DNA of 53,093 nucleotides, from contig DASZRO010000083.1 in NCBI GenBank assembly GCA_035550055.1, positions 1 through 53,093 of the forward strand, read 5' to 3'. Under the pieces are notes generated by a model, which had not been told where the DNA came from, did no database searches, and saw only the letters and a list, made by a program, of their open reading frames with translations. Origin of the DNA: Mycobacteriales bacterium. Its GTDB lineage: Bacteria > Actinomycetota > Actinomycetes > JAFAQI01. How positions within the stretch are numbered: the first letter of the stretch is position 1; every line of letters begins with the position of its first letter. Of this stretch, positions 1,132-53,093 are shown one piece after another. Both the position numbers and the translations under genes were made by a program.

Positions 1132-1339
1132 CCACTTCAAGATCATCCTCGGCTACGGGCCGGTCGCCGGCATCCCCCGATGCCCGTGCAACGACCCGGG
1201 CAACCATGTCGCGGTCGAGCAGAGCACCACCGACCCCCTCGACCTGCTGATCCGCTGCTGGTGCGGCCGCACGATGCGAGCCCGCGCCGACAACGAGCAA
1301 GAGATCACCGACCTCATCGCCACCCGACGGACCGCATAG
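1124..1339 (+). CDS. Small cysteine-containing phage protein
   Basis: GTG start at 1124 inside the end of the preceding gene; 71 residues. Two short Cys motifs (CPC near residue 20 and CWC near 46) might bind one zinc ion. The C-terminus is charged and helical. No family recognised. The gene is supported by overlap coupling, frame openness and codon use like its neighbours. Confidence 0.55.
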   Translation: MADHFKIILGYGPVAGIPRCPCNDPGNHVAVEQSTTDPLDLLIRCWCGRTMRARADNEQEITDLIATRRTA

Positions 1340-1380
1340 ATGACGTGCTGGCCCTATTCCAAGCCGGAGCCTCGCAGCTC

Positions 1381-2514
1381 ATGAACACAACCGCCGCACG
1401 CCGCCGCGCACGCCTCACCACAGACATTGGCCGCTACACGCGGCGAGCCTGCCGCTGCGGCCGGCCAATCCGCGACGCCTACCTCTGCCGCGAATGCACC
1501 GGCACGCTCGCCGCGCTGCTCGAGCAGGTGCCACAGCTCGCCGCCGACGCCGCGATCGCCTACAGCAAACGGTCACGCATGGCAGCGAAGGTCGGCGCCG
1601 CCCGCAGCGCCGAGACGTCGCTGCCGTACGACCCGCGGCCGCGCCGCGCGTCAGATCGCCTCGCCAAGGTGCTCTACCGCTACGCCGTCACCTTCAGCGG
1701 CCTGCTCCTGCCCGCAGGCCGACCGGCCGGCCCAACCCACCCTCGCTGCCAGCACACCTCCTGCACCGCGATCCGCGGCCAGCTCTCCACCGACCCACTC
1801 GACCTCGCCAAGCAGCTGCACGACCGCCGACACAAGATCCGCCGCCAACCAGCCGCACCCAACCTCCTCGCCGATCTGCAGCGCGCCACCGAGCGCCTCA
1901 GCGACCTCATCGACCGACACGAACACTGGTACGCCGGCCCGTGCCTCGAGCCGTACGTCTACCTCGACGAGAACAACGAGATCCGCCTCCAATGCACAGC
2001 CGAGCTCTACGCCCGCGACGACGCCACCGAGATCACCTGCCCGACCTGCGGCGCGATCCACAACCTCGAAGCCCGGCAACGCTGGCTCATGAAAGAAAGC
2101 GAAGAGGTCCTCGCCACCACACTGGAAATCTGCCGCGCAGTCGAGACCTACACCGGCACCGCACTCACCCAAGAACGCCTCCGCCAATGGCGCCACCGCG
2201 ACAAGCTCCACGCTCGAGCCTGCCGCCTCGACGACCAAACGAACCTCTACCGCCTCGGCGACGTCCTCGACCTCCTCCACGCAGCACGCCGAGCCGCCAT
2301 ACCCGACCAGCGCGAAGACCTCGACGCATGGAACCTCGGCCCCGACCACCACTGCTCCAAGCCCAGCAAACCCCACGGCGTCGCGCTCTGCCCGGTCTGC
2401 GACGACCCAGTCAACATCAACGGACTCGCCATCGTCATGACCCACGGCACCTGCGACGGAGCCGGCATCACCGCCCGCCCACTACGCGTCACACCGGCGT
2501 GTCGAATCGCCTAA
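1381..2514 (+). CDS. Phage zinc-ribbon and helix-turn-helix protein
   Basis: 377 residues from ATG 1381; the frame is open further upstream, but that part overlaps the previous gene and is Pro/Arg-rich shadow sequence. The N-terminus has a CxC...CxxC cluster (C24, C26, C36, C39). A second ribbon (C, then CPTCG) lies near residues 200-222. Near residues 255-300 a segment TQERLRQW...LYRLGDVLDLL reads like the winged HTH of MerR or excisionase-type proteins that choose DNA sites. A last CPVC pair lies near the end. Such proteins are common beside the HNH/terminase genes of actinophages. The role, DNA binding in regulation or packaging, is inferred. Confidence 0.65.
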   Translation: MNTTAARRRARLTTDIGRYTRRACRCGRPIRDAYLCRECTGTLAALLEQVPQLAADAAIAYSKRSRMAAKVGAARSAETSLPYDPRPRRASDRLAKVLYRYAVTFSGLLLPAGRPAGPTHPRCQHTSCTAIRGQLSTDPLDLAKQLHDRRHKIRRQPAAPNLLADLQRATERLSDLIDRHEHWYAGPCLEPYVYLDENNEIRLQCTAELYARDDATEITCPTCGAIHNLEARQRWLMKESEEVLATTLEICRAVETYTGTALTQERLRQWRHRDKLHARACRLDDQTNLYRLGDVLDLLHAARRAAIPDQREDLDAWNLGPDHHCSKPSKPHGVALCPVCDDPVNINGLAIVMTHGTCDGAGITARPLRVTPACRIA

Positions 2515-27500: not shown

Positions 27501-29045
27501 ATGATCGAGCGGATGCGCGGTGACGCCGCGCTGTCGTCAGGGGGCAAGTACGTCGCGGCCGCGATCGCGGTCGCGCTGCTCGCTCATTACACCGATGGCC
27601 CGGCACAACAGCACCAGCACGTGCTGTACCTGTGGCTCGCGCTCGGCGTCGTGTCGGCGCTTTTGGTGCCGATGTACCCGAAGATCGTCGCGGCCGCGCC
27701 GGCGCTCGACATCCCGACGTTGGTGCTCATCGCCGGTCTCGACCTCGCGGCCGTGTTCGCCGTCGTCGAACTGACCGGCGGGGTGAGCGGACCGTTCTGG
27801 GTCCTGATCATGGTCAACACAACCGCAGCCGCGGTGATCGCGCCGAACCTGCTCCTCGCCTTGGCCGCCGCGCTGTTCTACGTCGGCGCGCTGGTCGGCG
27901 CGACCGCGTGGGCACACACCCTGACTCACGCCGACGCCGGGCCTCTCGTGGTCGTGTCCGCCTGCCTGCCACTCGTCGCGTTGCTCGGCCAGGCCGTCGC
28001 GTCGCGGCTGGAGACGCAACGTGCGCAGTCCGACGCCGAGCGCGAAAGCCTCCAGCGGACGGTGGTCGAGCTGACCGCCGCGCTGGCGCAGGCGGCGCGG
28101 GGTGACCTGTCGGTGCGCGTCGGGTCCGATGAGGCGTCCGCGGAGATGCTCGGCCAGCTGGCGACCGCGTTCGAAGACACCCTGGGCAACCTGCGCGGAC
28201 TCGTGGGCCAGATCCACACCGGCGGCGAGCAGATCGTCGCCTCGGCGCACCAGCTGCTCGCCAGCGCCGAGCAGCACGCGGCGTCGGCAACCGAGCAGTC
28301 CTCGGCCGTCACCGAGACGACCTCGACGATCGAAGAGCTGGCCGCGACGGCAGCGCAGATCGCCGAGACGTCGGAGTCAGTGGCGAGGTACGCCGCAGAG
28401 ACATTGCGTCACGCGGAGGACGGCCGGGAGGCGGTCTCGGCGAGCGTCGCCGCGATGGACACCATCGCCGCGCGGGTGGAGCAGATCAGCGGCCGGGCGG
28501 GCTCGCTCGGCGAGAAGGGCATGGAGATCGGGCGCATCCTCGACGTCATCAACGACCTGGCCGACCAGACCAACCTGCTGGCGCTCAACGCGGCCATCGA
28601 GGCGGCGCGCGCCGGCGAGAACGGCCGCGGTTTCGCGGTCGTCGCCGCGGAGGTCCGCAAGCTCGCCGAGCGCGCGCAGCAGTCGACCGGGCAGATCTCC
28701 GCGATCGTCGCCGAGATTCGCGCCGAGACCTCGGCCACGATCCTCGCCAGCGAGGAGGGCGCGAAAGAGGTGCGGGTCGGCTCCGAGCTCGCCCGCGGCG
28801 TGGTCGACGCGCTCGAGCGGATCAGCGGAATGGTCGACGAGACCACGACGGCGGCGAAGGAGATCAGCGTCGCCACGCAGCAGCAGCGCAGCGCGTCGGA
28901 ACAGGTCGTCGCGGCGATGACCCAGGTCTCCGACGTGTCGCGTCAGTACGCCGTCGGCTCGAAGCAGGCAGCTGCGGCTGCCGCTGAGCTCAACAACCTG
29001 GCCTCCCAGTTGCGCGGTTCGATCGCGCAGTTCCGCATCGCCTGA
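27501..29045 (+). CDS. Methyl-accepting chemotaxis protein with membrane-embedded N-terminus
   Basis: 514 residues. The N-terminal part (about 15-175) is almost entirely hydrophobic, with about six membrane helices and no extracellular sensor domain. After it come a HAMP-like linker ([16 protein letters not shown]) and a full cytoplasmic signalling domain with the hairpin tip ([20 protein letters not shown] split, then [19 protein letters not shown]) that contacts CheA/CheW. The N-terminal domain is similar to that of the third receptor at 51919. It probably senses something in or near the membrane. No che genes lie in this window. Start at 27501 or 27513 is uncertain. Confidence 0.88.
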
Positions 29046-50351: not shown

Positions 50352-51917
50352 GTGGACGAGCACGACTTCCAACGAGCGTTCGATCGCGTCGGCACCTTCG
50401 TCTCATGGATCACCGCGGCCGCACTGGCGGGCGCGTTGAGCTTCGACCAGTACGGGTCGAACCACCCGCTGCACCACTGGCTCTACGTACTGCTGATGGG
50501 CGTGTGCGCACTGATCGCCGTCGCCTACGGTTCCCAGCTGGTCATCGCCGGGCGTACCGGCCAAGCGGGGCGTCTGCGGCTGTCGCCGAGCGGGTCGGTG
50601 TTCCAGCTGATCTTCAGCACCGCCGGGCTCACCTGGCTGTGCTCAGTCACTGACGGCATCGAGCGGCCGTTCTGGTTGTTCTTCATCGTCGCCCAGATCC
50701 CGGCGTCGATCAGCCTGCCGGTCGTCGTCACCGTCTTCTTCGGCTTCGCCGCGTCGGGTGGCGTGGTGTTGTCGTCGTTCATCGCCGGCACCGCGACCGA
50801 CCACAACCGCGGCTCGCTGCTGCTCGTCTGCGCCTTGCTTCCGGTTGCGGCTTGGTACATCGCAACGATCACCGACGGGATCCGCCGTGCGCAGGAGAGC
50901 GCCGTCGCCGACAAGGAGCGGCTGGGCAGTGGGGTCGACGAGCTGTCGACAGTGATGGCGAGGGCGGCGCAAGGCGACCTCGGAGCCTCGGTCGGCGACG
51001 AGTCGTTCAACGACGAGTCACTGCGGAAGCTGGGCAGCTCGCTGGACCACACCCTCGGCTCGCTACGGCTGCTGGTCGGCCAGATCAGAGGTGGTGGTGA
51101 GCAGATCGTCGCTTCGGCGCACCAGCTGCTGGCGACGGCGGAGGAGCACGCGGCGTCGGCGACCCAGCAGTCGTCGGCGGTGTCGGAGACGACCTCGACG
51201 ATCGAGGAGCTCGCGGCCACCGCGGCGCAGATCGCCGAGACCTCCGAGTCGGTCGCCCGCTACGCGGCCGAGACGCTGCGTCACGCCGAGGAGGGCCGCG
51301 AAGCGGTGTCCGCGTCAGTGGAGGCGATGGATACGATCGCGATGCGCGTCGAGCAGATCGGCACTCGCGCGGCATCGCTCGGGGAGAAGGGCCACGAGAT
51401 CGGTCGCATCCTCGACGTCATCAACGACCTGGCGGACCAGACCAACCTGCTCGCCCTCAACGCCGCCATCGAGGCAGCCCGGGCCGGCGAGAACGGCCGC
51501 GGCTTCGCCGTCGTCGCCGCGGAGGTCCGCAAGCTCGCCGAGCGGGCACAGCAGTCCACCGGGCAGATCTCGGCCATCGTGGCGGAGATCCAGTCGGAGA
51601 CCTCGGCCACGATCCTCGCCAGCGAGGAGGGCAGCAAGGACGTCCGTACCGGCTCCGAGCTGGCGCGCGGCGTCGTCGACGCGCTCGAGCGGATCTCGGC
51701 GATGGTGGACGAGACGACGACCGCCGCCAAGGAGATTTCAGTGGCGACCCAGCAGCAACGGTCGGCCTCGGACCAGGTCGTGGCGGCGATGACCCAGGTC
51801 TCGGACGTCTCGCGGCAGTACGCCATCGGCTCCAAACAGTCCGCCGCCGCCGCCGCCCAGCTCAACAACCTCGCTGCGGAGCTGCGGCTGGCCATCGCCC
51901 AGTTCAAGGTGGCCTGA
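50352..51917 (+). CDS. Methyl-accepting chemotaxis protein, second
   Basis: 521 residues from GTG 50352. N-terminal membrane part (about 15-175) with about six helices and no extracellular domain; it is less similar to the other two receptors than they are to each other. Linker ([15 protein letters not shown]) and signalling domain are nearly the same as in the receptor at 27501, including the tip hairpin. The next receptor gene starts one base after the stop. Shared signalling parts but different membrane parts suggest different inputs to one chemotaxis array. Confidence 0.88.
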
Positions 51918-51918
51918 C

Positions 51919-53093
51919 GTGGCCGCGACCTACGCCGCGTCGCCCGGCGCCAACGGCGAGCACATGTTCAACCGGCTGACCAACGACTCCGCGGTGTCCT
52001 CCTTCATCAAGTTCGCGGCCATGGCGGCAGCGGTCGCACTCATCGCGCACGACACCCCCGGCCCGACGCGGGACCACCGCAACCTGCTGTTCGTCTGGAT
52101 CGCGATCGGCGTCGCCTCGCCGGTCGGCGTGTTGATCCACAGCCGGATGAAGGCCAACCGACTTGGCGAAGCGGTCGTGCTGGGGATCATCGCCGGCGCG
52201 GACTTCGCCGCGTTGTTCGCGGCGCTGTGCCTGACCAACGCAGTCAGCGGCCCGTTCTGGGTCGTGACGATCATCAACACGATCGCCGCGGCCGTCATCG
52301 TTCCCAACCAGGCACTGGCTGTCGGGGTAGCGCTGGCGTACGGCGGGTCACTCGTCGGCGCCACTGCCATCGCGCACGACCTGAGCCGCGCGACGGCCGG
52401 ACCACTCGTCGTGATCGGCCTCAGCTTCCCGTTGGTGGCACTGCTGGGCAACGCGGTCGCGTCACGGCTCGAGACGCAACGCACTCATGCCGACGCCGAG
52501 CGCGACCAGCTCCGGGCCACCGTCGAGGAGCTGTCCGCGGCACTCGCCCAGGCCGCTCGCGGCGACCTGTCAGTCGGGGTCAGCGCCGACTCCCTGTCCG
52601 AGGAGCTGCTCAGCCGGCTCGCCCACGCCTTCGACAACACTCTCGGCAACCTGCGCGGTCTGGTCACGCAGATCCGCAGCGGCGGCGAGCACATCGTGAC
52701 CTCGGCGCACGAGCTGTTGGCGTCGGCGGAGGAGCATGCGGCGTCGGCGACGCAGCAGTCCTCGGCGGTGTCGGAGACGACGGCGACGATTGAGGAGTTG
52801 GCGGCGACGGCGGCGCAGATCGCGGAGACGTCGGAGTCGGTGGCGCGGTATGCGGCGGAGACGTTGCGTCATGCCGAGGATGGGCGTGAGGCTGTGTCGG
52901 CGAGTGTGGATGCGATGGACACGATCGCGCAGCGGGTGGAGCAGATCGGTGATCGGGCGTTGTCGTTGGGTGAGAAGGGTCAGGAGATCGGCCGGATTCT
53001 GGATGTGATCAATGATTTGGCGGATCAGACGAATCTGTTGGCGTTGAACGCGGCGATCGAGGCGGCGCGGGCGGGGGAGAACGGTCGCGGGTT
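51919..53093 (+). CDS. Methyl-accepting chemotaxis protein, third (3' end outside window)
   Basis: GTG 51919 with AAGGTGG upstream; ATG 51964 is a later option. Open to the window end, about 391 codons. N-terminal membrane domain is a clear relative of the receptor at 27501 (shared [28 protein letters not shown]). From about base 52720, where the signalling domain begins, codon use changes from C-ending to G- and T-ending codons (GCG, TTG, GAT, AAT), though the protein remains standard. This suggests a recombined origin. The last visible part is the tip ([14 protein letters not shown]). Confidence 0.87.

Follow-up and report, generated by a model that had tools for sequence, protein, structure and literature searches.

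A codon switch inside an actinobacterial chemoreceptor gene coincides with a tract shared by two receptors of one genome

The truncated receptor gene and its codon switch

The window, meaning the whole stretch of DNA analysed, is contig C83 of 53,093 bases, which belongs to a draft genome of 3.54 Mb in 122 contigs. Three chemoreceptor genes lie on its forward strand. The first (C83a, 27501 to 29045) and the second (C83b, 50352 to 51917) were recognised by Pfam matches, the second also from the list of open reading frames, and both use ordinary codons and serve as comparison genes. Directly downstream of the second lies the third (C83c, 51919 to 53091), which is cut by the contig end. Its frame is open from a GTG at 51919, with an ATG at 51964, and its truncated product scores 73.4 bits against the MCPsignal domain (PF00015; cut-off 34.6), compared to 151.4 bits for a related copy on contig C31 of the same genome. 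Codon blocks and the comparison with C31 divide the gene into a sensor and membrane half with mixed G- and C-ending codons (51919 to 52701, forward strand) and the 5′ part of a tract with G- and T-ending codons (52702 to 53093, forward strand), which runs past the contig end and has its copy at positions 337 to 730 of C31.

The original prediction had described a sharp change of codon use within the third receptor, and the change is real, as block shares, codon counts and change-point analysis all show. In the proposed scan along the gene, carried out in 30-codon blocks, the share of C-ending codons is 0.47-0.67 up to 52729 and then collapses to 0.03, 0.07, 0.17 and 0.17, while G-ending codons rise to 0.63-0.90 and T-ending codons to 0.07-0.23. 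The last 127 codons show an NNG:NNC ratio of 68:4, an NAT:NAC ratio of 10:3 and eight TTG codons, whereas the upstream part of the gene shows 77:86, 1:31 and three, respectively. At about 52702-52711 the endings at silent sites, until then a mix of G and C, become G and T, and the maximum-likelihood onset is at codon index 261 (interval 256-266; log-likelihood gain 31.8), corresponding to about 52702. Over the matching stretch, C83a and C83b have NNG:NNC ratios of 37:35 and 38:36, with NAC in excess of NAT; the expectation that these two receptors use C-ending codons is thus borne out for NAC over NAT, but not for NNG:NNC, which is mixed. Nor does the feature end at 53093, where only the contig ends: the sister copy in C31 keeps the style through most of the remaining gene.

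The rarity of this style was gauged in a survey of 52,742 windows of 100 codons, taken from 989 heuristically called open reading frames (wrong frames included). The survey drew on 1.18 Mb out of 3.54 Mb, with N in place of a base over 11.5 kb of the sampled sequence. The value of ln(G/C) reaches 2.87 in C83c and 2.94 in the C31 copy, and the next highest value is 1.53. A further 262 reading frames (12,417 windows) gave at most 1.21. The codon switch is far beyond chance. Five small contigs absent from the survey, L108, L109, L152, L191 and L197 (C1, C2, C16, C75 and C105 of this genome), consist of N for more than half of their length. The window also holds the opposite codon extreme, an open reading frame at 1180-2514 (forward strand) with many GAA codons and with 3 NNG against 45 NNC in one 100-codon window; it has no Pfam match and is possibly a mobile-element gene. 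Similarly, a gene for a phage integrase family protein (L151, which is contig C15, 4225-5508, reverse strand) has one strongly C-ending window (8:47).

A tract shared by two receptors and its native protein

From 52702 onwards, C83c and the C31 receptor differ at five positions in 392 nt, all of them silent (about 99% identity), whereas their sensor halves are 42-77% identical per 60-nt block, with a higher value in the block straddling 52699. The C31 receptor, which is the other extreme gene of the codon survey, lies at the start of its contig and runs off it. C101 and C49 both open with the 141 nt that close C31, and these two contigs carry different gene ends in ordinary codons (..RGSISRFNVG and ..RASIAQFKVA). 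Two sequences lead into the tract and two lead out of it, meaning that a tract common to two receptors has been collapsed into one in the assembly; it stretches from about 52702 to within about 12 residues of the stop. In both C83c and C31 the codon onset is located at the start of this tract. Two genes of one genome hence carry a near-identical tract with divergent flanks, and the borders at both tract ends, together with the different gene ends, would fit an exchange rather than a whole-gene duplication followed by acquisition of a new sensor. The proposal of a mosaic gene formed by recombination is therefore supported; as read from sequence and the assembly graph, the gene is an intragenomic mosaic.

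The same proposal had named a distant receptor gene as the partner, and this part was not supported. When 46 signalling domains were placed in a protein tree, both tract copies, which are identical, nested among receptors of their own genus (support 99/94), while the other G/T-style domains lay in a separate clade beside domains that do not have the style; each tract groups with its host lineage, and the present one does not fall outside it. The tract protein is 92-94% identical to C83a and C83b and 87-93% identical to six entries from the congeneric genome G001 (one of them partial). It is 83% identical to the domain of Frankiales bacterium RYN_177, a metagenome-assembled genome (MAG), whose domain is in turn 93-96% identical to those of its own relatives. 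Among 393 genomes of the class searched at the DNA level (E <= 1e-85), no match outside the genome itself exceeded 80% identity, and a distant-mode search of plasmids and phages returned no near match. When the exact G/T-style pattern was sought in 84,980 species genomes, one contig matched, that of RYN_177. With viral contigs also scanned for exact patterns, the sole relevant match from all these searches was RYN_177, whose tract protein belongs with its own relatives, and a distant donor was rejected.

Codon style and strand polarity in related tracts

Arrangements of the same kind are found in two further assemblies. In RYN_177, two receptors with different sensors (C94 and C106) both end in the 127 nt that open C141, the contig bearing the G/T-style domain. 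In G003, a member of the same family as the present genome, the tract common to the receptors on C46 and C62 begins near codon 184 of C46 and leads into two 3′ tails (C143 and C191) through an overlap of 147 nt. In a likelihood change-point analysis, this genome and RYN_177 each supplied the G/T model applied to the other, and G003 was analysed with a model built from both. All six gene copies of the three genomes gave an onset between -8 and +10 codons relative to the start of the tract (gains 18-34), and the tract begins at a different gene position in each genome. A related gene pair (61-68% identical; L096 8974-11717 and L088 3-2485) flanks the C31 receptor, about 7 kb away, and the C46 receptor of G003, which hints that these two receptors are orthologues.

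A switch recurring in orthologues had been named as the sign of an old, selected feature, and the comparison gave a divided answer. The switch is absent in five receptors of the own-genus genome G001 that were examined, and it is present in milder form elsewhere: G416 and G402, which belong to another group, have orthologous receptors whose sensors are 77% identical and whose signalling domains favour G (100:25 and 91:38, respectively), and G002, another family member, has a G003-like gradient over the matching span. In G416, the milder G/T style occurs with one copy found, so present sharing was rejected as the sole cause of the style. An older pair in G001 (C161 and C156), identical at 390 of 429 positions, has no strong skew.

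Within the tracts, the style changes from the 5′ to the 3′ end. By successive sixths of the tract, the G/T-ending share in G003 is 52/56, 34/56, 20/55, 18/56, 4/55 and 4/56; the corresponding values are 41/43, 38/42, 35/43, 39/43, 38/42 and 24/42 in this genome, and 42/48, 43/47, 38/48, 38/48, 39/47 and 33/48 in RYN_177. Amino-acid-adjusted slopes have z values of -10.4, -4.9 and -3.3 for G003, this genome and RYN_177, respectively, against a mean of -0.03 (SD 1.16) in 617 control reading frames; leaving out the 3′ tail brings this genome to -2.8, inside the control range, and the RYN_177 slope is barely past the lowest control (-3.1). The largest positive control slope, 7.7, belongs to a gene of the window itself, and the next is 4.0. 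G002, with a z of -5.3 across the corresponding span, and G396, with -4.4, follow the same order, a second copy not being known for either, and the steepest positive slope among 44 receptors is not above +1.8. A universal gradient in all receptors was considered and rejected: 30 of the 44 slopes are negative (mean z -0.93), but the second bin exceeds the sixth in only 21 of 39 genes, a count from which five extreme genes had been removed (6 of 50 genes were omitted as too short).

At the 5′ positions, fourfold sites, two-fold pyrimidine codons and leucine codons (TTG/CTG) shift jointly toward G/T, and in the 3′ part of the G003 tract the same classes shift toward A/C, with GAA, CAA and AAA up to 14/25. 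Isoleucine codons shift in this genome only (5/14, compared to 0/18 in RYN_177). The flip from GCG to GCC inside one G003 domain cannot be explained by tRNA-based codon preference, whereas a strand-based process at the DNA level can produce it. In bacterial GC-biased gene conversion, recombination shapes silent composition; here, in contrast, G/T is set against A/C depending on position and strand, and fourfold G+C shows no rise, at 120/134 for the tract against 144/155 for the C31 sensor. All three recently homogenised tracts run from G/T at the 5′ end to A/C or normal at the 3′ end, of which only G003 reaches A/C, and it was the G003 tract that suggested the idea, after the fact. G003 shows the polarity, and this genome and RYN_177 are consistent with it, the sample being three tracts from fragmented draft assemblies, including the RYN_177 MAG.

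Proposed polar conversion and competing explanations

Collectively, we give about an even chance to a reading in which the unusual codons are a property of the tract rather than of a donor species: the mosaic arose through gene conversion, or an exchange equivalent to it, and a strand-polar bias in that process sets the codons. The exchange would have made the signalling-domain tract of C83c near-identical to that of C31, each receptor keeping its own sensor and the gene ends remaining different. Biased conversion is inferred as the cause of the polarity: with the usual break point as the divide, the bias on the coding strand would favour G/T over A/C upstream and the opposite downstream. To the left of a double-strand break, the recipient top strand would pair with a donor-type bottom strand, and the reverse would apply to the right. 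If NucS rejected G-G, G-T and T-T mispairs in such intermediates, changes from G/T to A/C would be blocked and changes from A/C to G/T would pass on the left, with the opposite outcome on the right. NucS mismatch rejection in recombination intermediates is perhaps the likeliest agent, a step based on the published specificity of the enzyme: according to PMC11551744, NucS of M. smegmatis rejects dG-dG, dG-dT and dT-dT and tolerates dC-dC, dA-dA and dA-dC. According to PMC5290159, NucS limits homeologous recombination up to 10-fold and is, as a rule for the class, present in hosts that lack MutS/MutL, and its limiting role also appears in a review (PMC8228993). Crude motif scans over part of the present genome matched neither NucS nor MutS/MutL. 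In a simulation of two copies under this bias, uniformly placed breaks gave a G/T share falling from 0.73 to 0.18, and breaks confined to the last fifth kept it at 0.89-0.97 until it fell to 0.41 in the last sixth. These shapes resemble those of G003 and of this genome, respectively, in what is an after-the-fact fit.

Several other origins of the style have to be weighed. A RecA/Chi-like system could pair G/T-rich single strands better, so that a G/T-rich strand is selected or spreads and frequently recombining tracts turn G/T-rich on the invading strand, which predicts the same polarity. In-vitro selection with RecA yields GT-rich sequences. PMC3763553 describes preferential RecA binding to TGG repeats resembling Chi. 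This explanation requires a selective force at single silent sites and, taken alone, leaves the A-to-G and C-to-T shifts unexplained, which occur in every codon class and reach 54/58 and 11/107 G/T-ending; we therefore regard it as unlikely. The signalling domain could instead have been imported from a distant organism of other codon usage and then copied to the second receptor. The abrupt onset, a style seen nowhere else in the sampled genome, and the RYN_177 domain of the same style, whose DNA is 86% identical and which uses the same codon at 151 of 186 sites against 137 expected (z 3.8), speak for such an import. The codon exceptions in common are mostly at sites that nearly all receptors share, and on this ground the excess was not accepted as proof that the two genomes drew the style from one source. 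Moreover, the tract protein nests in its own genus, the RYN_177 protein is far closer to its own relatives, the searches described above found no donor above 80% in the class and no near match in plasmids or phages, and the G003 tract reverses its style within itself, which together make the import quite improbable.

An old switch selected at the level of translation or mRNA is hard to maintain because the preference between GCG and GCC flips inside one domain, own-genus receptors lack the switch, and its onset moves with the tract start. The common G leaning of G416 and G402 and the repetition of the G003 gradient in G002 over the same span could be explained in this way, but we consider it very unlikely. 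Finally, reads from the C31 receptor could have been used in error to extend the end of C83: the genome is in 122 contigs, the feature sits at the edge of one of them, and the exact run between C83 and C31 at this end is just 110 nt, compared to overlaps of 141 nt at other contig ends. Such an artefact is hardly credible, given the five silent differences from C31, the two exits (C49 and C101) that require two entries, and the same arrangement in two other assemblies with overlaps of 127 nt and 147 nt; in addition, a wrong join cannot make a codon style that is also present in C31.

The strand-polar conversion preferred here has partial counterparts in known systems. Tlp2, Tlp3 and Tlp4 of Campylobacter jejuni are, as here, receptors of one genome with identical signalling domains, their sensors being about 30% identical; the available text of that account (PMC9769880) concerns proteins and does not describe a codon switch at the border or strand polarity. 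Gene conversion between paralogues of M. tuberculosis (PMC13061034, a preprint) is likewise an actinobacterial tract exchange with an altered substitution spectrum. In its accessible portion, T>C changes are enriched, the median tract is 101 bp and the spectrum is read as reduced NucS action during recombination, with no such polarity reported, whereas the tracts here span about 700-1000 nt and show a directional gradient from G/T to A/C. Within the titles and abstract openings searched, with subscription journals mostly outside, strand-polar codon composition in conversion tracts was not described.

Horizontal transfer is a common interpretation of anomalous codon use within a gene. As the present anomaly follows an intragenomic conversion tract and encodes a native protein, such calls can be wrong in actinobacteria, and the data suggest that copying between genes, when repeated, can rewrite codons in a strand-directed manner. 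It is a tentative and rather doubtful generalisation that repeated paralogue conversion in actinobacteria is strand-polar through NucS and leaves codon scars, G/T at the 5′ side and A/C at the 3′ side, that mark tract borders and break positions. If the polarity were general, silent sites would record the place and direction of DNA exchange between paralogues, and in bacteria that lack MutS they would serve as a natural reporter of mismatch repair acting in the course of recombination.

Tract sharing also accounts for the breaks that assemblies suffer in receptor genes of this kind. In this genome, 109 contig ends were usable and were compared for sequence in common. A repeat of about 114-141 nt occurs at six of its contig ends (C13, C15, C19, C28, C34 and C46), in both orientations and in intergenic DNA. 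Other repeats of the genome were considered as a test and set aside, the sole multi-copy repeat being short, present in both orientations and uninformative. A fourth receptor is cut at the end of contig C35 (position 72270), and a receptor tail with ordinary codons starts at the end of C108 (position 36647); these may be the two ends of one gene.
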